Source of the DNA: Verrucomicrobiota bacterium
Lineage (GTDB): Bacteria; Verrucomicrobiota; Verrucomicrobiia; Verrucomicrobiales; Akkermansiaceae
DNA length: 11,126 nt
Assembly (NCBI GenBank): GCA_026397695.1
Contig: JAPLUJ010000350.1
Span: 4,098 to 15,223, forward strand
Reading direction: 5' to 3'
Position numbers and translations under genes: made by a program. This document shows, piece by piece, positions 442 through 11,126 of the stretch (positions are counted from its first letter, which is position 1; every line of letters starts with the position of its first letter). Below the pieces are notes generated by a model, which was not told the origin of the DNA, did not search any database, and saw only the letters and a list, made by a program, of their open reading frames with translations.

Positions 442-1680
442 TCAGGGATTCGGATAGTTGGTGTTCTTAATGATCGGGCCGCCGTCACCACCGGTGCGGG
501 TAACCGACATGTTGGGGATAGCGATCGCATTCGGCTCAACGAGCGTGCCCGGGATGGCCGTACGGAAAGCCGTGTCAAAGGTGGTTTCATCGGCTGATGC
601 GTCATTGTCGAGGTAGAACTGCTGATAGCCCCAGAGGCTGTAGAGTCCCTTCTTGACATTTTCAGCCGAGAAACTAACACCGTTGTATTTCATCTCTTTG
701 GCACCTTCGCCGATGGCGTTGAGCGCGTCTGAGATCGTGAGGTAGCCCACGAACACGACATCCACCGGAGAACCACCGTAGGTAACACCGACCGAAGAGC
801 GGGTAAGGAACTCGCGGACAACGTCGTTCGAGGAGCCGCCGCCATTTCCTAATTCAGTGACGGTCAGCAGCATACCGGTCGGATAGGGATCCGTGCGGGT
901 TCCTTGGTAGGTGGCACCGAACTGGGTCAGACCGGTGCCCGAGCCATAACCGGTTTCCGAAAGGATGGTGGCACGGGTGCCGGATCCGTTGTTACGACCG
1001 GTGGCAAGCACGGTGGTGGCATCGGTGGTGTTGCCGGTGAAAAACGCGATCGGGAGCTGACCGGCTCCCCAGAGACTCCTGTGCAGTTGGTCGGTCATGT
1101 TGTTGAGTTCGGCCGGGGAACCTTCGCCAGCAAGGAACATGAACGGCACCACACCCACCGCGCCGCCCGTGAGGGAGGCGTTCGGGCGCTCGGAAAGGAG
1201 CTTGTCCACATCCGAGAACGACCACTGGGCCACCGCGTTCTCGTACTGGGCGACCTCGTTGCCGGTAGCGCCGAGGTTGTAGCCAGTGGTCGTCACCGGG
1301 TTGCCGTTGGTGAGGTCGTTGGGAAGATCGGTCACACCATTCAGGCGAATGTTGTCGTCGATGAACTGAATGGAGTTGTTGTCTTCGACATCCTTGATGC
1401 CTTGGGTGGAACCCGACCAGGAGCAGCGGACGATAATGGTGTGACCCGGGAAGGCCGCCATGGAGCCGACGAAGATCGAGCGGCTGGCTCCGCCGATGCC
1501 GCTAGTTCCGGTGTAGGCATACTGAGTGGTCCCCGCACCGCCGAGGACGGCGATGAGGGCAGTGTGCGAGGAGGCGCGGAAGGCCGTGGCTCCTGTGAGG
1601 TTGAACACTTTGGTGTCGGCGGAAGCTTGGCTGGCGATGAGGGCCAGAGTTCCGAACAGTATGGTTGATTTCATTTTCAT
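442..1680 (-). CDS. Secreted PstS-like substrate-binding-fold protein
   Basis: A 412-residue protein with a clear signal peptide (MKMKSTILFGTLALIASQASA, cut near residue 21). The mature part follows the order of phosphate-binding PstS proteins. LTGATAFR (28-35) stands at the first loop, SGSTQGIKDV (89-98) at the PstS GSGxGIK position, and WSFSDVDKLL (153-162) at its FGASD position. GVVPFMFLA (176-184) follows, then the diagnostic GRNNGSGTR (228-236), VGYLTISDA (311-319) at IGYxxxxYA, and NGVSFSAENVKKGLYSLWGY (333-352). This suggests a periplasmic or secreted protein that may bind phosphate or another oxyanion. Ligand and transport role are unproven: no pstC, pstA or pstB is nearby, overall similarity is limited to motifs, and there is no PEP-CTERM tail. 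A second in-frame ATG at 1674 is an alternative start. It is probably co-transcribed with the PEP-CTERM gene. Confidence 0.72.
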   Translation of the reverse strand: MKMKSTILFGTLALIASQASADTKVFNLTGATAFRASSHTALIAVLGGAGTTQYAYTGTSGIGGASRSIFVGSMAAFPGHTIIVRCSWSGSTQGIKDVEDNNSIQFIDDNIRLNGVTDLPNDLTNGNPVTTTGYNLGATGNEVAQYENAVAQWSFSDVDKLLSERPNASLTGGAVGVVPFMFLAGEGSPAELNNMTDQLHRSLWGAGQLPIAFFTGNTTDATTVLATGRNNGSGTRATILSETGYGSGTGLTQFGATYQGTRTDPYPTGMLLTVTELGNGGGSSNDVVREFLTRSSVGVTYGGSPVDVVFVGYLTISDALNAIGEGAKEMKYNGVSFSAENVKKGLYSLWGYQQFYLDNDASADETTFDTAFRTAIPGTLVEPNAIAIPNMSVTRTGGDGGPIIKNTNYPNP

Positions 1681-1749: not shown

Positions 1750-2592
1750 TCAGGCGGAACGACGGCGGCGGAGGGCTACTCCGGCACCAGCGATAAGCGC
1801 GAGCATGGCGGCCGATGGCTCCGGAACGGAGGCCACTTGGCCGAGACTGTTGATAGAAAAGGTGGTTTCGTAGGTGCCGCCACCGACGACACCGGTCGGA
1901 CTGGCACCGGTGTTGGTGGAGAGAATGCGTTGGAGATCAACATAGGTCTCAGCGGTGCCCTTGCCGAAGTTCTGCTGGATGCCACCGGTGAAGACGGTGA
2001 AAGCGGCTCCAGGGGTGGGGTTCCAAGCACTCCAGCCGTTGGTCCACTGCACCGGTTGGGTGCCTGCGTCGAGGATTGCCGCGCCGTCGGCTTGCGTCGT
2101 GAGGGTGGGAAGGAAGCCCTCCATGCCGGAAAGGGCGTTTCCGCCGATGCCCAGGGCGTCGGAAGGGTAGGCATTGGCGGCATACAGCACACCCCCGCCG
2201 ATCGTTGCGGTCGGGGTGGAGGTGTAGAAGGTGCGGGAAGGATCGCCGTTCACCGGAAGGCGCGAACCGATACCGCTGGTCGGCTGTTGGTTGAGGTTGC
2301 CGACAACACCGAACCAGAGGTCGGTGCGGCTGTACCAGTCCGTACCATAGGTGGCCGAGAGCGTCGTGCTGATGTTGCCGATCGGGGTACTCCCCCAAGT
2401 CCCCGGATTATCCCGGTGATAGGTGCCGGCACCGAGGTTGAAGAAAACGTTCTTCGTGGCTCCGGTGCCTGACTTGGCCTGGAACCCGAGAATCAAGTCT
2501 CCGTCGGTGAACGAGAAAGCCCCCATGGCGGAAGGAGCGGCCAAAGCCATTCCCATACCAAGGAGCTGTATGATTTTTCGTGTTGGTTTCAT
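1750..2592 (-). CDS. PEP-CTERM sorting domain protein (exosortase substrate)
   Basis: A 280-residue exported protein. The N-terminal signal peptide (about 1-24) has a basic start (MKPTRK), a hydrophobic core and a likely cut after AMGA. The mature part opens with FSFTDGDLILGFQAK (26-40) and includes KNVFFNLGAG (47-56), YGTDWYSRTDLWFGVVGNLN (82-101) and other Gly/Thr/Asn-rich beta sequence. I have seen this body type among verrucomicrobial PEP-CTERM proteins; its function is unknown. The C-terminus is a textbook sorting signal: VPEPS (256-260), a hydrophobic segment (261-273) and RRRR (275-278). In this system an exosortase cuts at the PEP motif and the protein is released to the surface or matrix, usually alongside exopolysaccharide. 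No exosortase gene is in the window. The ATG at 2590-2592 follows a G-free leader. The next gene, for a PstS-like protein, starts 69 bases downstream with no hairpin between, so an operon is likely. Confidence 0.9.
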   Translation of the reverse strand: MKPTRKIIQLLGMGMALAAPSAMGAFSFTDGDLILGFQAKSGTGATKNVFFNLGAGTYHRDNPGTWGSTPIGNISTTLSATYGTDWYSRTDLWFGVVGNLNQQPTSGIGSRLPVNGDPSRTFYTSTPTATIGGGVLYAANAYPSDALGIGGNALSGMEGFLPTLTTQADGAAILDAGTQPVQWTNGWSAWNPTPGAAFTVFTGGIQQNFGKGTAETYVDLQRILSTNTGASPTGVVGGGTYETTFSINSLGQVASVPEPSAAMLALIAGAGVALRRRRSA

Positions 2593-3191: not shown

Positions 3192-4529
3192 TTATTGGAG
3201 AAACCATGGGATGGCGGGTATCACTTGAATGGGATGCGGGACCACGGTGCCGGGAGGAAGTGCTTCAAGGAGGATGAGTATCAACTCCGCGCCCGCCAGC
3301 AGGGTGCGGGCCTCCATGAGAGAGCGGGTTTCACGCGCAAGGACTTCCGAGTTGGCGGCATTGGCGCACACCTGGATGAGCAGCGTGTCGCCAGAGGGGC
3401 CGGTGGCGTGAAAATCGACTTCGTTTCCCTGTGTGGTGCGGAAGTAGTGGACATCGTATCCTCGTCGCAGCAGTTCGATGAAGACTGCGTTTTCGAGCGC
3501 ATGGCCGATGTTGGCCCTGCCGGTGCGTTCATAGATCGGGATGAGTCCAGAGTCGATGGGATAGGCCTTGCGGGGGTTGACCATGCGCTGACGCTCGGAT
3601 GAGGTGAGCAGTGAGGTGGTGCGGATGAGGAAAGCATCCTCGAAGTGGGCGAGAAAGGCGTGGAGGCTGTCTTTGGAAACAGGCAGGCCTTGGGACCGCA
3701 ACGCATCGTGGAATTTCTGGATGCTGAAGGGTGCGCAAGGATTGCCGAGGAGGTGGCGCTGGAGCCAGCGCAGGGCGACGGGATTGGAAACCCGGTGGCG
3801 TTCGATGATGTCACGAAGCACAGCCACATCGACATATCCCTGTAACAACGGACGGCGGTCCCGCGCATCAAGCTGTTGGGCATCGGGAAAACCGCCCTCG
3901 TCCAAATAGGTCCGGAAAGCTTTTTCCAGAGTGGATCGATGGGCCTTGGGCAAATGATCCCAATCCTTTTCCGGGAGAAGATTCTGATGAAGCAACGCTT
4001 CACGAAAGCTGAAGGGGAAGACGATGACTTCCATCGCCCGACCGCGCATGCTGGTATGCACTTCCCGGCTGAGCATCGAGGCGGAAGATCCGGAGATAAA
4101 GAGGCGGATCTTCTCGGTATCGAGAACACGGCGGGCGAAAGCTTCCCAGCCGGGGATGATCTGAATCTCGTCGAGAAAAAGCGTGATGCGGGATTGATCC
4201 CGAAACTCCGGGTGAAGTTGAAAATATGTTTCAAGCAGGTAGGAGAGATCGGAGACCTCCATTCCCGCGAGGCGGTCGTCTTCGAAATTCAAATATACCA
4301 GCGATTCCCTCGGCTCACCGGATGCAAGCAGATCACCCAGGCACTGCCACAGGAAGCAGGACTTGCCGCTGCGCCTCATGCCGATGACCGCCATCGCTTT
4401 TCCCGGAACCTTGGGCAATCGAATCTCCCGCCGCGTGAGGCTCGGAATTTCGGCAACGAGCGCATCGGCAAGCTTTTCCTTGAGGTTTCTTTGGATTTCT
4501 CCTTTCACGAGGGAGAGGATAGGTGACAA
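3192..4529 (-). CDS. AAA-family ATPase with DUF4143 (AAA_14-type) domain
   Basis: This is a 445-residue cytoplasmic ATP-binding protein. The P-loop is GMRRSGKS (50-57), Walker B is ITLFLDEIQ (115-123), and a sensor-like SGSSASMLSREV (146-157) precedes the family phrase RGRAMEVIVFPFSFREAL (162-179). EGGFPDAQ (211-218) and GYVDVAVLRDIIERH (231-245) follow, then a winged-helix-like stretch (about 250-310). The C-terminal DUF4143 part has LENAVFIELLRRG (345-357), GNEVDF (368-373) and LIQVCA (384-389). This resembles a PD-(D/E)XK fold, but the usual lysine after IQV is cysteine, so nuclease activity is doubtful. The molecular role of this widespread, patchily distributed family is not settled. The longest frame starts at TTG (4527-4529), with AAGGA three bases upstream. 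The only other early start is GTG at 4506-4508, which has no Shine-Dalgarno site; a stop lies at 4536-4538. The neighbours suggest no shared pathway, so this may be an independent accessory gene. Confidence 0.88.
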   Translation of the reverse strand: MSPILSLVKGEIQRNLKEKLADALVAEIPSLTRREIRLPKVPGKAMAVIGMRRSGKSCFLWQCLGDLLASGEPRESLVYLNFEDDRLAGMEVSDLSYLLETYFQLHPEFRDQSRITLFLDEIQIIPGWEAFARRVLDTEKIRLFISGSSASMLSREVHTSMRGRAMEVIVFPFSFREALLHQNLLPEKDWDHLPKAHRSTLEKAFRTYLDEGGFPDAQQLDARDRRPLLQGYVDVAVLRDIIERHRVSNPVALRWLQRHLLGNPCAPFSIQKFHDALRSQGLPVSKDSLHAFLAHFEDAFLIRTTSLLTSSERQRMVNPRKAYPIDSGLIPIYERTGRANIGHALENAVFIELLRRGYDVHYFRTTQGNEVDFHATGPSGDTLLIQVCANAANSEVLARETRSLMEARTLLAGAELILILLEALPPGTVVPHPIQVIPAIPWFLQ

Positions 4530-4630: not shown

Positions 4631-7600
4631 TCATTGCTGGACTTCGGAACCCTCTGCGGGTTTCTCAGTCTTCTCTTTCTCGTCGTCTTCTTCATCCTCA
4701 ACCGTGCCACCGCCGCCATAGCCGATGACCTCCACGGTGATGAGCGAGGGAGCGTCATTGGCGACCTTGGTTTCGGCGCTTGTTTGGTCCTCGCCGGGTT
4801 TCTCGACCGTGTTGCCTGCTGCGGCTGACGTGTTAGAGGCGCTGGTCACCGTGCTGATACTGGGAGCGGAAGCGGCGACGGGAGCGCCGGCACTGCTGCC
4901 GCCCGCTGAGATATTGCCTGCATTGACCACGGTGACGGCGGCCAGGTTGATGTTGCCGCTGACGCGAATCCCGGCGTCTCCGGCATCGATGATGCCAGTG
5001 GGTGCGATCAAATCGACGTTGCCGGGGGCAACACCTTCCACCGTAGCCAAGACGCCGATGCCACCACCCGTGGCCAGACCGGCGAGGTCGGTTTGCACCG
5101 CGGCACTCTGCGGATCGATCACAACCCGTGTGGGTGGAGCTGCGGACACCGTGCGCGAGGAGGTGCCTGCGGCAATATCCCCTTTGGATGACCAGATGGC
5201 GACATTGCCACCCTTGAGCGTGAAGATCCGGCCAATGCCGATGCCCACGCTCTGGTCGGTGAACACGTTGATGCTGCCGCCCGACTCGGTGACGATTCCG
5301 GGAGGTGTTAGAGGGTTGCCAAGAGTGCTGTTGGCCATGTTCAAGCCGCCGCCCGGCGCGAAGATGCTGATATCTCCCCCGCTGCGGGTCCGGATGTCAC
5401 GGCTTTGCGTGAGAATATCTCCTTCCCATGAGAGCGTTTCCGGGAAGAGCGCTTTGATCGCCTCGAATCCCTTGTCGTATATTCGGTAGCCCGCGCTGTC
5501 CGGATCATTGAAATCACGTCCCGTGTCGCGTAGCACGAGGTTGTAAATCGACAGCGCCATCTGCTTTTGTTGCTCCTGCGTGAGCGAAGGGTCTGCCAGA
5601 TGCAACAAGTCACTGCCAGGCGTGATGTCGAGTACCAGAGTGACTCCGTCGCGCACAACTTGAACCTTCGTCACTGCACCGATGGTGATGCCGCTCAATA
5701 AGTAGGAGTCATCGTAGCTCGATACGATTTCCCTATCAGAAACCTTGAGGATCACGTCACCTGCTTGCAGTCCCGCCACATCGGCAGCTCCACCTGCTGT
5801 GACGGTCTTGATTTGGATGCCATTTTCCAAGGTCTTCGTGCCTTCGTAATCGGTCACTACGCCGAGTATCCCCTTGGCTTCCGCCAGATAGCGGTCCCCA
5901 TCCGGGCTGGATGCGAACTGCGCGATGAATGATGCAAAGTCCAAATTGCTTCCGCTAAGAGTGCTGGCTGGTCCTATTCCCGCACCGAGCACAAGATCGG
6001 CACCCTCCGCAATGAGATAAGGGTTGCGGAGGTTGCCTATCGAAGTGATGCCGGTGCCGGTGCCGTCTGGTTTGTTAGGACCGATGCCGAGGTCGAGGTT
6101 GCGGCCCGCAAGAACCTGAAGCGTCCCGGGACCGGAAATCTGGATGTCCCCCGCAAGGATGGACTGGCCTGACGAAAGGACGTTACCCGCAGCAAGCGAA
6201 GCCACACGCAGCGGGCTGGACGAATTGTAGGCGATGATGTCCCGACCGGCGGTGACCGAGGTGGCGTCCGTCGCACGCGCGTTCTGAATGTAGAACGCCA
6301 CATCCGTGATGTCGGTTGCCGCGGTGATCCGCGCCTGCTTCCCGGAGAAAAGCGTTAGACCCGACAAGCTTCCATCAAGCGCGTGGATCCGGACCGGATT
6401 CCCGTCATCGTCGTGGAGCCCTCCCGGGGTGTGCCGGGCCTGCCGGGTTTGCAGGACGGCATTCGTGCCGGTGATGTTCATGAATCCCGGCACCGTGTTA
6501 CTGGTTAGGGCGGCGCCCGAGCTGGTTTGGGTGACGCTTGTCAGCGGCTTGAAGATCCAAGGCACGGACGCCGGATTCGCGTCTGATAGATTGATGATAG
6601 AGGACACCCAGCTTCTGACCGTATCTCCCGATCCCAGTTTGGAGAAGCCGGCAGGCTGGAGCGCGTTGACCGATCCTGCGGCGAGAAGTTCGAGCTGTCC
6701 TGTTGACGCGGGAAATGTTGTTAGATTTCCCGTCAGATTCAGATCCGCAGAATACGCAGTGATGAATAGGCTCGCGGCGGACAGCGGCCATACCGGGGCA
6801 AACGGTTCGAGGCTGGTTTCCGCCAGACGCAACCATGGCTGGAACCACGCGGCGGAGGATGCGGAACCGGCAAGCAGCAACTGGGTGTCATGCCATGTGC
6901 GCAGCATCGGCTGTGCCTGGGTTTGGCTAAGCAGGGTGACCGCGTTCCTATAAGTGACATCACCACCTAACGAAAGAGCGATGACTGCGCTGTCGGCGGA
7001 GATGGTGGAGAAGTAGGTTTTATACCAGAACTTGTTACCAACTCCCTGGGGAAGCAGGAACGGATTGCTTACGGGACCCAACAGCAAATCGCCCGCTGCG
7101 GCAAGGTCGAACGAGGACTTGCCCACGAACAACGTGGTGGGCAACCAAGTGAGAGGATCGAGTTGCGCGGTGGCGGGTTGGTTGAGGTTGCCTATCAATC
7201 CGAACGATGGTGAGCGGGTTCCATTGGTGGTGATCGATCCACCGGCATTGAGTGAGCCGCGGCCCCGTTCCACGTAGTAAACTCCGCCGTTGATGTCATT
7301 GCCTGCGGTGACGCGAAGATCGCCGCCATCGAGTTCGACGAATGCCCCGGCCGAGGGGATTCCCCGCGCGGCACGCGCGTTGGTGGGAATCGCCGCGCCC
7401 ACGTTCATGATGTCATGCCCGGCGGTCAGGGTGATATTGCCGCCGCCGAGCGCACCCACGTCTTGGAAGAAGTTGCTGAAGTCCACCCACCAGGTGGTGG
7501 ATGCGGCGGTATCGGTGGTGGAACCGAAACCACTTCCGATCCGGATTCTGCCAGCTTCGCCATTGGCATCCAGATAGCCGCGCCGGTAGAGCCAGTTGTT

Positions 7601-10600
7601 AGGCATTTGTCTGGATGAATCATCGATGAGGCCCGCATTGTTGCGGGTCTTGCGCTCGATATTTCCGCCGGCGGCGATGGTCACGTTGCCTCCAGCCATG
7701 CTGTATTGGGCGAGGTAGTTTTGCTGCGCTGATCCGAGGTCGCCCTGTTGCACGTTGCGGTCGATGATAGGGGTGACAAAATCGTTCGGGTTGATGATGG
7801 TGGTGGCGTCTGCAAGGCGGGTGCCTGCGGTGTAGATGGAGGCGAATGGATTGAGCAATTGCAGATTCCCGCCGGTGCTGATGTCGATGTCACCGGAGCC
7901 GGTGCGGATCACCTGGAAGAGGTTGGTGATGAGGGACGAGGTGCGGGCGTTGGCACCGCCGGTGATGGTGGCCGCCCCGGCGTTTTTGCCAAGTTGCAGC
8001 AGGCCGGATGATTCGCCAAGCGCGGCAGCCGGCCTAACGGAATGATAATCCGCCGCTGCCAGATCGGCTCCTGCGGCCATGCGCAGGGACCAGGATTGCA
8101 TGTTGGCTGGCAGGAGCGGATTGTGGGCCATCAGCGGTGCCAGCCACAGGCTCGTGCCACCGGAGAATCCATCGCTCAGAGCGTTGAAGAATGTGAGGTT
8201 TTCCGATGCCCGGAGGGTCAGCACACCTGCGGCGCTTCTGGGTCCGAATCGGAATGTTTCCAGATTCCAGTCGCTGGCTGCGGTGGAGTTGCTGGCACCG
8301 AGTGTGAGGCTTCCGTTCAGATTGTATATCTCCGCACCGGGAGCGAGGATCAAATCAAGTGCTGGCTGGAGCGAAGTCAGGCGACCGAGCATGGCGGTGT
8401 AACCAGCGGTGGCGGGGCCTGCCGCTCCGAGGAAGGCGGTCGCGTCGGATTTGATGCTGTTTTGCAGCGTCGAGGTGATGGTTCCGATTCCCGTTAGACC
8501 ATAAAGTTTCACCCCTTCCACGAGGATGCTGGAAGCCCCGGTGATCGAACTGCCGATGGTGTTGATCAGGAGGTCGGTGTTGGCGGCGTTGCGCGGGGCG
8601 CGCAGGTGCAGGGTGCCGGTGAATTTTCCGAGCGTTTCGCTGCCAGCGTTCGCCTCGGCGACGGATAGATTGATGGTTGAACCGGTTTGGAGGTCCAGGG
8701 TTGCCGAGGTTTGAACGAGGCCGTTGTGTTGATTGCCAGCTTCGAGAGTGACGGAGCCACCTTTACCGGCGGAATCGAATTTCGCAGCGGAGGCGTTGAG
8801 CAACGAGCCACTGGCCAAGGTCAGACTGCCATGGGCTTTGAGATCGATGACTCCTCCGGTGACACCCGATGCGTCGATGGTGTTAGAGACCGTAATGTTT
8901 CCGGAATCGGCAGAAACCCGATAGGAGTGCGCGGTGGCAGGGCCATCGATGTTCACATTGCCGTTGCGGACGCGGTAATCGCGGGCTTGGGTGAAACTAC
9001 CAGCATTCAAAATGGCATCAAGAGCTGTTAGACTGCCGCCCGTGATCGAACCCATATCAAGCGAAAATTTTCCTTTTTCACCGGTGTCTCCTGCGGTGCC
9101 GATAATGACACCTGCCAGATCCAGAGTGCCTGAAGGAGCTTTGACTTGGATAGTCCCGGCATTGCCGCCGCCCTGCTTGGCGGAAACATTGATGGTGGCC
9201 GCCGCCTGAACGCTCACTGAACCGTTGTCTGCAACGAGATCCACCGTACCACCACTGGTATAACGGATAGTATCTATGAATGTGGTGGAAGTTCCCGCCA
9301 AGTCCAGAATCGTGGTGGCCGTATCGCCCACTGTGAGATCGCCGGAAGTGGCACGCAAGGTGAGTTTTCCGCTAGGCAGGGTGATATCGCCATTCACCTT
9401 CACACTGCTTCCCTGAAGGGTGAGGTCCGCGCCAAAACCGCCGTTGAACGGGGCGGGGCGGGTCACGGCGGGCCGGACAAGCTCAAGCGCTCCGTGGGAA
9501 CGGATCTGATAGTTCGAGGCGCTGGCCCCGGTGAGGCGCGGAGTGACCAGATCGAGGTCTCCGGCCACATCAAGAGATCCGTGACTTTCAGTTAGAATGC
9601 CTGCGGTCGCGGCCAGAGTCACATCCGCATACCCATCCAGTTGAATGGCGTTGGCACCGAGTGTGATCTGGTCCGCATCGAAGGTGACGGATCCTGATAG
9701 AGGAGTGGTCAGGAGTGCGGGTGTGGCGGTGTCGGCACTGTTTCCAAGCATCAGACGGTTTGCGGAAAAGGTGACTGTGCCGCCAGTGGTGTTGAAGCCG
9801 CGGAGAGTGGCCGCCTGAAGCGATAAACTCTCGAAGTTCCGGGATCCCACCGCGCCCGTGCCATAGACGTCGATGGTGGAATAGCTCAGCAGGGCAAGCC
9901 GTTTGGCGGAGCTTTGCAGGCTGGTAAACGCATTCCCCGCGAGCACCAGGCCGGTGGTGGGATTGAGGATTCCCGGGTTGTCCAGACTGATACTGATTTG
10001 ACCGCTGTTGAGCGCGACGCCATCCGCAAGCAGGCGGGCGGATTCGGAAAGGCTCGTGCCAGAAGTGGAGTCGAGCACGATGCTTCCGCCGGTGAGGATA
10101 ACCCCGGGGCGGAGCGTGAGTTCCGGCAAGACGGATGTGCTGGTGGCGCTGCGTGAGATGCTGCCGGAAGCATTGGCGCTCACCCGAACGAGCGAACCGT
10201 TGCCGCTGCCTGCGGTGCCGGCACTGCCCAGCAGCAGGGTGTCGAGGGAAAGATCATCATCCTCCGTAGAGGTGATCTTCGAGTTTTCACCGAGAGTGAG
10301 TTTTTCACGGGAGACCAGAACGACGTCGTTGCCGGTGAGAGCTGTGCCAGCGTTGTCGAGGGTGACATTCGCCGAGTTCGCGGTGACTGAAACGCCATTC
10401 GAGTTGAAGCTAAGGAGGCCGCCTATCAGCAGGCTTTCGGCGCCAAAGCTATTGAGGGTTTCCACGCTGAGAACCAAGCCCGCGCCAGTCACAGCGGCAC
10501 CTGTTGGATTGATGAGAATGTCTGACGAGCTGTTGATGTCTATCAAACTGCCGCGTCCGGAGGTAGGCGCGAGCGATGAAACCCGCCCTCGCAGGGCCAT

Positions 10601-11126
10601 GCTTGAAGTACTGGAGAAAGCGAGGTATCCAGCATCCACCGGCAGGCGTGGAACTGTGAATTCACGGGAGATGGCGGCCTCCCTCAACACGGTGTTTGCC
10701 AGCAGATCCTGATACTCGGCACGGGTACGGAAGACCTCGGCTTGGGCAACCTCGAAACCGCCGATCAGGGTGGGGCCGGTGCGTGATGGGTCGAGATTGT
10801 TGGAACGATAACCGGAAACGATGGACGCACCGTCGGGCGATGTCACCGCCCCGTTAGGCACAATGGACTTTGGCGTGATCAACAGCGCCCCGGGAAGCAG
10901 TGCGTAACGGGCGGGCAGCAGCGTGTAGGTTCCTGCCGCTAGATTCTTGCTGGCGGATAAAGTGATTTGGTCACCTGCTTTGAGTGAGGCATTCGTGTAG
11001 CCCGGCGCACCGCCCAGATTGACAGCGGACGAGTCGGTATTGAATGGAGCGTAAGGACTGTAACTGAAACCGTAACCCGGAATGACCGCAAAGCTGCTAG
11101 ACGAGGCGAGAATGTCGGTGCTCCCG
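4631..11126 (-). CDS. Giant filamentous-haemagglutinin/TpsA-like surface exoprotein with an internal PDZ-like domain (5' partial)
   Basis: The frame is open from the stop at 4631-4633 to the right window edge, giving 2164 visible residues. The first TTG at 10882 is not a credible start, because well-formed coding sequence continues upstream of it. Visible residues 62-85 carry a typical TpsA phrase (GTYTLLPARYALLPG). Residues of about 130-1130 are Gly/Ser/Thr/Asn-rich beta-helix sequence (GGSVTLEAG, SGDLTV). From about 1140 to 2075 I recognise the C-terminal DUF3739-type region, with WWVDFSNFF (about 1212), GGVYYVERG (about 1280), RDTGRDFNDPDS (about 1866) and VDLIAP...GIRVSGNINLAA (about 2040). 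A PDZ-like domain interrupts this region at 1752-1837. The protein ends in an Ala/Ser linker and an acidic Glu/Lys tail (about 2142-2164). I see no cysteine in the visible protein. In this family the protein is exported by Sec and a TpsB outer-membrane pore to act in adhesion or surface structure. No TpsB gene is visible, so that role is inferred from the family. Confidence 0.9.
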   Translation of the reverse strand, partial: GSTDILASSSSFAVIPGYGFSYSPYAPFNTDSSAVNLGGAPGYTNASLKAGDQITLSASKNLAAGTYTLLPARYALLPGALLITPKSIVPNGAVTSPDGASIVSGYRSNNLDPSRTGPTLIGGFEVAQAEVFRTRAEYQDLLANTVLREAAISREFTVPRLPVDAGYLAFSSTSSMALRGRVSSLAPTSGRGSLIDINSSSDILINPTGAAVTGAGLVLSVETLNSFGAESLLIGGLLSFNSNGVSVTANSANVTLDNAGTALTGNDVVLVSREKLTLGENSKITSTEDDDLSLDTLLLGSAGTAGSGNGSLVRVSANASGSISRSATSTSVLPELTLRPGVILTGGSIVLDSTSGTSLSESARLLADGVALNSGQISISLDNPGILNPTTGLVLAGNAFTSLQSSAKRLALLSYSTIDVYGTGAVGSRNFESLSLQAATLRGFNTTGGTVTFSANRLMLGNSADTATPALLTTPLSGSVTFDADQITLGANAIQLDGYADVTLAATAGILTESHGSLDVAGDLDLVTPRLTGASASNYQIRSHGALELVRPAVTRPAPFNGGFGADLTLQGSSVKVNGDITLPSGKLTLRATSGDLTVGDTATTILDLAGTSTTFIDTIRYTSGGTVDLVADNGSVSVQAAATINVSAKQGGGNAGTIQVKAPSGTLDLAGVIIGTAGDTGEKGKFSLDMGSITGGSLTALDAILNAGSFTQARDYRVRNGNVNIDGPATAHSYRVSADSGNITVSNTIDASGVTGGVIDLKAHGSLTLASGSLLNASAAKFDSAGKGGSVTLEAGNQHNGLVQTSATLDLQTGSTINLSVAEANAGSETLGKFTGTLHLRAPRNAANTDLLINTIGSSITGASSILVEGVKLYGLTGIGTITSTLQNSIKSDATAFLGAAGPATAGYTAMLGRLTSLQPALDLILAPGAEIYNLNGSLTLGASNSTAASDWNLETFRFGPRSAAGVLTLRASENLTFFNALSDGFSGGTSLWLAPLMAHNPLLPANMQSWSLRMAAGADLAAADYHSVRPAAALGESSGLLQLGKNAGAATITGGANARTSSLITNLFQVIRTGSGDIDISTGGNLQLLNPFASIYTAGTRLADATTIINPNDFVTPIIDRNVQQGDLGSAQQNYLAQYSMAGGNVTIAAGGNIERKTRNNAGLIDDSSRQMPNNWLYRRGYLDANGEAGRIRIGSGFGSTTDTAASTTWWVDFSNFFQDVGALGGGNITLTAGHDIMNVGAAIPTNARAARGIPSAGAFVELDGGDLRVTAGNDINGGVYYVERGRGSLNAGGSITTNGTRSPSFGLIGNLNQPATAQLDPLTWLPTTLFVGKSSFDLAAAGDLLLGPVSNPFLLPQGVGNKFWYKTYFSTISADSAVIALSLGGDVTYRNAVTLLSQTQAQPMLRTWHDTQLLLAGSASSAAWFQPWLRLAETSLEPFAPVWPLSAASLFITAYSADLNLTGNLTTFPASTGQLELLAAGSVNALQPAGFSKLGSGDTVRSWVSSIINLSDANPASVPWIFKPLTSVTQTSSGAALTSNTVPGFMNITGTNAVLQTRQARHTPGGLHDDDGNPVRIHALDGSLSGLTLFSGKQARITAATDITDVAFYIQNARATDATSVTAGRDIIAYNSSSPLRVASLAAGNVLSSGQSILAGDIQISGPGTLQVLAGRNLDLGIGPNKPDGTGTGITSIGNLRNPYLIAEGADLVLGAGIGPASTLSGSNLDFASFIAQFASSPDGDRYLAEAKGILGVVTDYEGTKTLENGIQIKTVTAGGAADVAGLQAGDVILKVSDREIVSSYDDSYLLSGITIGAVTKVQVVRDGVTLVLDITPGSDLLHLADPSLTQEQQKQMALSIYNLVLRDTGRDFNDPDSAGYRIYDKGFEAIKALFPETLSWEGDILTQSRDIRTRSGGDISIFAPGGGLNMANSTLGNPLTPPGIVTESGGSINVFTDQSVGIGIGRIFTLKGGNVAIWSSKGDIAAGTSSRTVSAAPPTRVVIDPQSAAVQTDLAGLATGGGIGVLATVEGVAPGNVDLIAPTGIIDAGDAGIRVSGNINLAAVTVVNAGNISAGGSSAGAPVAASAPSISTVTSASNTSAAAGNTVEKPGEDQTSAETKVANDAPSLITVEVIGYGGGGTVEDEEDDEKEKTEKPAEGSEVQQ
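5615..5872 (-). other. PDZ-like domain encoded inside the TpsA-like gene
   Basis: These 86 codons encode a sequence that reads like an HtrA-type PDZ domain. GILGVV stands at the carboxylate-loop position, followed by the core GIQIKTVTAGGAADVAGLQA and then GDVILKVSDREI. A helix-like segment (about 5750-5700) follows, and the domain ends with the strands VTKVQVVRDG and VTLVLDITPG. The order and spacing match the usual PDZ phrase of GSPAAKAGLKPGDVI, a helix and two final strands. On both sides the sequence returns to DUF3739-type text: SGSNLDFASFIAQF upstream and SIYNLVLRDTGRDF downstream. By hand count, 128 of 240 bases at 5641-5880 are G or C (53%). The 180 bases on the right have 107 (59%) and the 180 bases at 5461-5640 have 100 (56%), a mild dip only. 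No protease catalytic motif is seen nearby, so a peptide-binding or assembly role is inference. Confidence 0.8.

Follow-up and report, generated by a model that had tools for sequence, protein, structure and literature searches.

The analyzed window is a stretch of 11,126 nucleotides from a Verrucomicrobiota bacterium of the family Akkermansiaceae and contains a gene for a DUF3739-type TpsA-like exoprotein followed by three further open reading frames, all on the minus strand. Because the contig (C235) ends where the window ends, the exoprotein frame is open at its 5' end, and 2164 residues of the protein lie within the window. The features considered below are as follows:

4631-11125, minus strand: DUF3739-type TpsA-like exoprotein gene, 5' end missing (2164 residues in the window)
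5615-5872, minus strand: PDZ domain, residues 1752-1837 (Pfam PDZ_2, PDZ_6 and PDZ; AF2 models and structure matches)
5858-5872, minus strand: GILGV (GILG retained in 21 of 21 sequences compared)
5708-5716, minus strand: YDD motif in the second PDZ helix (invariant, 21 of 21)
5543-5929, minus strand: exchanged segment, comprising the PDZ domain with linkers of ~20 residues before and ~22 after it, residues 1733-1861 (delimited by flips of affinity and a fixed insertion site)
4877-5212, minus strand: Pfam DUF3739 domain, residues 1972-2083 (PF12545; 100.6 bits against a cut-off of 27)
4634-4741, minus strand: C-terminal TVEVIGYGGG motif and charged tail (alike in PDZ-bearing and PDZ-less relatives of one clade)
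3192-4529, minus strand: AAA_14/DUF4143 protein downstream of the exoprotein (Pfam)
1750-2592, minus strand: protein downstream of the exoprotein with a weak PEP-CTERM match, below cut-off
442-1680, minus strand: 412-residue frame downstream of the exoprotein, no family over cut-off

Frames of equal lengths (445, 280 and 412 aa) also follow the exoprotein gene in genome G385.

An earlier note, made from the sequence, had described a PDZ domain within a TPS-type exoprotein; the PDZ domain was confirmed, and the TPS-type assignment was supported. The Pfam models PDZ_2, PDZ_6 and PDZ each score above their own cut-offs on the window protein, and the NCBIfam HtrA models match its PDZ part only, with a best E-value of 1e-9, under their cut-offs. 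Structure prediction for residues 1752-1837, which the note had proposed as a check, yielded a PDZ fold that matches solved structures; for the domain alone, the top-ranked of five AF2 models was used, the mean pLDDT of the five ranging from 43.0 to 79.4. Among the matches listed, the nearest solved folds are the PDZ domains of DegS, DegQ and HtrA, some of them with C-terminal peptides, and no M28-named entry occurs among the best 50 or fewer structure matches per look-up. In the modelled C-terminal part of the exoprotein, a right-handed β-helix resembling that of HxuA, the predicted PDZ domain sits in a helical excursion close to the C-terminal end of the helix. The note had placed it within the DUF3739-type region; the domain is indeed internal to the exoprotein, but the Pfam DUF3739 domain starts downstream of it. 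We take the position of GILGV to be that of the PDZ carboxylate-binding loop, and, going by motif conservation, the domain may bind peptide C-termini. GILG and YDD are among the 34 segment positions that are invariant in the 21 sequences (one of which, L004, repeats P0149). Pairwise dN/dS values of 0.17-0.22 were obtained for the PDZ against four relatives, the closest pair differing by 7 synonymous and 4 non-synonymous changes and the other three pairs being saturated or nearly so.

The probable architecture of the complete protein is shown by P0130, a full-length relative of 3853 aa with flanks 98% identical to those of the window protein, in which the TPS domain (PF05860) spans residues 143-349, the PDZ domain 3453-3523, and DUF3739 3661-3772. 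Pfam searches of the 2164 residues encoded by the 5'-truncated gene detected neither a trypsin-like protease domain, up to an E-value of 0.1, nor Peptidase_M28. Compared across 16 exoproteins with the PDZ and 17 without it, the C-termini track the host clade rather than the presence of the PDZ, with the exception of one clade of seven proteins, all PDZ-bearing, that end in VTAQL. The suggestion that the domain binds the protein's own C-terminus accordingly found no support, and this candidate was rejected.

Across 142 aligned C-terminal regions, the cassette region measures 139-141 residues in the 17 PDZ-bearing sequences and 51-59 in the 125 PDZ-less ones, with no intermediates, and no alternative insert was found at the site in those 125 (linker window of 54-65 versus 145-147 residues). 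The insertion place is identical in 20 proteins, namely the window protein and 19 distinct database entries recovered by two cassette searches, which returned 15 PDZ-bearing proteins among 22 matches and 16 among 17. A Pfam PDZ was present in 2 of 120 proteins, the best 120 of 974 matches in a first search that needs shared 5-residue words and scored the 7975 candidates with the most words in common. At the genome level, with at most nine candidates scored per genome, the full cassette was found in 5 of 386 genomes of the order (the window's own, G385, G172, G249, and G251) versus 82 of 386 for DUF3739, the two samples being assumed to be the same from their equal counts and handles, and, in a sample of 387 genomes of the phylum that addressed spread beyond the order, in the window's genome only (E ≤ 1e-28). 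This rarity in both samples indicates that DUF3739 proteins do not as a rule include the PDZ segment. The possibility that most of them carry it, which the earlier note had acknowledged would make its observation unremarkable, is thus rejected, most relatives sampled being devoid of the domain.

The closest relatives found for the exoprotein PDZ were not those that its HtrA-like appearance had suggested. When a profile built from 16 exoprotein PDZs was run on the frames of the loci examined, 21 M28-type PDZs obtained 73-82 bits, and the highest-scoring PDZ of HtrA type reached 54.6 bits. All 21 M28-type PDZs stand at the ends of frames, of 473-599 residues within the stretches examined; the one frame checked with Pfam contains Peptidase_M28 (E=1.7e-37), PA below cut-off, and a C-terminal PDZ_2, and the remaining frames were assigned on similarity or on a rough motif. 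In the PDZ tree (89 rows, five of them duplicates, sampled as one in three of the HtrA rows and one in two of the others; 84 columns, midpoint root), the 20 exoprotein rows group as a single clade (100/95) that adjoins 22 M28-type rows, with joint support of 96/87 for the 42 rows, and the HtrA rows lie apart. Three more distant M28-type rows are loosely placed, and there is no support (27/0) for the branch that groups the full set of 25 M28-type rows with the exoprotein PDZs. On score and tree together, an HtrA origin is rejected, and the exoprotein PDZ appears to share an origin with the C-terminal PDZ of M28-type peptidases. At the position of YDD, the M28-type PDZs compared mostly have YDY. 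In the order sample, M28-type PDZ matches (E ≤ 1e-18) abound in three families other than that of the window; within the window's own family, they were seen in one genus (g16) only. Second-rank M28-type-like matches, in frames of mostly ~1000 residues whose M28 nature is mostly presumed, are present in 105 of the 386 order genomes, and G249 and G251 hold both such a match and the exoprotein cassette.

A survey of DUF3739 relatives combined with phylogeny, as the earlier note had recommended, revealed a single insertion site and a patchy distribution. With the cassette columns removed, a tree of the flanks, built by a quick method from 60 of the 142 rows, 17 of them with the PDZ, scatters the PDZ-bearing rows among PDZ-less ones and contains nine changes of PDZ state, at least seven of which are forced by supported branches. 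AU tests on the flanks, for which the groups were picked after the trees had been inspected, reject uniting the 17 PDZ-bearing rows (p-AU 6e-10), uniting the seven Luteolibacter-like PDZ-bearing rows (p-AU 2e-46), and pairing P0128 with P0132 (p-AU 4e-7). In the PDZ tree, by contrast, the Luteolibacter-like PDZs form one clade (8 rows, 99/97), and P0128 is paired with P0132 (95/82); the labels Luteolibacter-like and Prosthecobacter-like derive from the source names of some members. Identity is higher in the PDZ than in the flanks for P0132/P0128 (82% versus 63%) and P0131/P0133 (76% versus 62%), but lower for P0005/P0127 (62% versus 84%), so that the PDZ is not simply slow-evolving.

Affinities along the proteins change at the borders of the domain. 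When the seven Luteolibacter-like PDZ-bearing proteins were compared with hand-chosen sets of 8 Prosthecobacter-like and 20 Luteolibacter-like PDZ-less rows, 21 of 25 windows resembled their own kind, and the four that flipped all adjoin the PDZ (residues 1733-1754 and 1840-1861). P0148 is in neither tree, as is the case for P0149-P0151, of which P0149 is identical to L004 in the cassette and in the 445 flank residues compared. Between 800 and 100 residues ahead of the PDZ, P0148 is 81-90% identical to the PDZ-less P0026 and 48-67% identical to P0130; starting 20 residues ahead of the domain, it follows P0130 through the rest of the stretch compared, except for a tie in the interval 145-200 residues past the first residue of the PDZ. 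The conflicting trees, the flipped linkers, and the pattern in P0148 are most simply explained by one Prosthecobacter-like origin and subsequent transfer with the linkers. A single insertion of the PDZ into the exoprotein family appears highly probable, and its lateral spread among exoprotein genes is likely. The domain probably entered the family in the Prosthecobacter-like lineage because the linker of its PDZ-less members most resembles the linker around the PDZ, a resemblance that also suggests the direction of transfer; the PDZ with its linkers would pass between related exoprotein genes by recombination. The earlier proposal of a separately acquired module is supported by the clean insert and its rarity, but the argument from GC content is weak, the composition of the segment being a weak sign of transfer.

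Two other explanations were considered. A PDZ that was ancestral in the exoproteins and lost many times, with no lateral spread, would fit the coarse match between the PDZ tree and the host lineages, including the single clade of Luteolibacter-like copies, but we consider it improbable: repeated losses would have to leave a like linker each time (62 of the 125 PDZ-less rows fit a loose IAPGxDF-type pattern), and the conflict over P0128 and P0132, the breakpoint in P0148, and the confinement of DUF3739 proteins with a PDZ to the window's own genome in the phylum sample all speak against such a scenario. Chimeric assemblies, in which exoprotein genes became fused to PDZ-bearing DNA, might be suspected given that metagenome contigs are the source of many sequences; however, the junction is identical and lies in one open frame in five separate genome assemblies and 19 database proteins, which leaves this explanation a negligible probability.

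The exoprotein gene belongs to a larger locus. In G172, the genes upstream of it encode TpsB (POTRA_2, ShlB), ExbB, ExbD, TonB_2, Porin_5, a coiled-coil-like protein, and a PPIC rotamase; ExbB of this genome has N-terminal DUF2341 and LamG parts. Searches (tblastn) with six of the operon proteins, ExbD not being among them, recovered all six in both G249 and G251 and five in G385, the rotamase being the one not detected there. TpsB is encoded upstream in four PDZ-bearing relatives, and the window contig ends inside the exoprotein gene; a ShlB-like fragment located at the edge of another contig of the window's genome (G000:C71:35-424) is possibly part of the missing TpsB. The same conserved operon, combining two-partner secretion, ExbB-ExbD-TonB, and a Porin_5 porin, occurs at L124 (7305-15281), in the PDZ-bearing regions L156, L157, and L158, and in the control regions L160-L167, and no description of it was found in the open-licence literature searched. 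In the eight control regions, which are taken to be PDZ-less since they gave no full cassette match, six of six proteins were found in five, five of six in two, and three of six in one at a contig end. Because the operon is equally present in PDZ-less relatives, it accompanies the exoprotein rather than the PDZ, and the PDZ is not needed for the core function. Inspection by eye of four PDZ-bearing and eight control regions found no C-terminal feature of the operon proteins special to PDZ-bearing genomes, and an operon partner recognised by its C-terminus was rejected as a candidate; the TpsB and Porin_5 frames examined all end in F.

The reading we favor, with a probability of roughly 45%, is that the PDZ is a complete insert near the C-terminal end of the β-helix of a type Vb DUF3739 exoprotein, that it is kin to M28-type PDZs, entered the family once, spread by recombination together with its linkers, and serves in docking. 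The exoprotein is presumably located at the cell surface, and, by analogy with the HxuA insertions, the PDZ would be displayed near the outer membrane and would hold a ligand by the ligand's C-terminus. Seemingly borrowed from a peptidase and handed on among related genes, the PDZ has the look of a swappable docking module. Docking of a partner is our best guess, and a moderate one.

Its main rival is a role in periplasmic assembly or processing, whereby the PDZ would act either within the periplasm or at the pore of TpsB. There it would bind an outer-membrane protein, or the exoprotein itself, by the C-terminus and so retain it or time its release. The DegS, DegQ, and HtrA structures nearest in fold, some with C-terminal peptides, and the terminal F of TpsB and Porin_5 are compatible with this possibility, as is the reported fate of FhaB, a C-terminal part of which remains in the periplasm and is processed by DegP, with its two PDZ domains, and CtpA (PMC8263021). 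However, PDZ-less genomes have the terminal F just as well, the exoprotein C-termini are not correlated with the PDZ, and the domain precedes the DUF3739 region rather than occupying the extreme tail, so that we regard such a role as rather unlikely. It is doubtful, too, that the cassettes serve a Ton-energised TPS machine as an exchangeable module for ligand specificity, whereby strains that swap the C-terminal end of the exoprotein would acquire or shed a PDZ capturing extracellular protein or peptide C-termini and presenting them to the neighbouring ExbBD-TonB-porin system. A folded domain tolerated in a loop as a neutral passenger, with no ligand, would accord with the lack of a PDZ in most relatives sampled, but the conservation of the loop and helix motifs in 21 rows, a dN/dS of about 0.2, and the repeated spread make this quite improbable.

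The domain combination is real and rare, and its origin and spread are well supported. Bacterial PDZ domains are known mainly from proteins inside the envelope; CtpA has one. As far as the titles listed indicate, no account of a PDZ inside an exoprotein was found in the literature searched, which comprised open-licence papers and left most subscription journals outside its scope, and the domain, tagged by Pfam in database entries, has apparently been annotated but not discussed. A PDZ on a type Vb exoprotein would, as far as the open-licence literature searched goes, present a C-terminus-binding module outside the bacterial cell in a manner not yet described. Natural pairs with and without the PDZ, with flanks about 74-87% identical, allow its role to be tested, and the finding draws attention to the conserved operon linking TPS with ExbBD-TonB and a porin.

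Among known systems, the C-terminal PDZ of M28-type peptidases has LGxxxDY, YD(Y/D)xxY, and TPG-type signatures in common with the exoprotein PDZ, by eye, but terminates an enzyme, whereas here the PDZ is internal to a β-helix protein in which no peptidase domain was found. HtrA/Deg proteases, such as DegS and DegQ, likewise have a protease domain not found here, and their PDZs score below the M28-type ones. FhaB/FHA of Bordetella is a TPS exoprotein secreted through a TpsB (PMC8263021), as is probable for the window protein; in the Bordetella system, the PDZ belongs to a protease of its own, DegP, whereas here the exoprotein itself bears it. HxuA, a TpsA haemophore of Haemophilus influenzae, has a β-helix fold like that modelled here, and insertions at the C-terminal end of its β-helix, not described as PDZ in the accessible portion of the report, hold haemopexin (PMC4873976).
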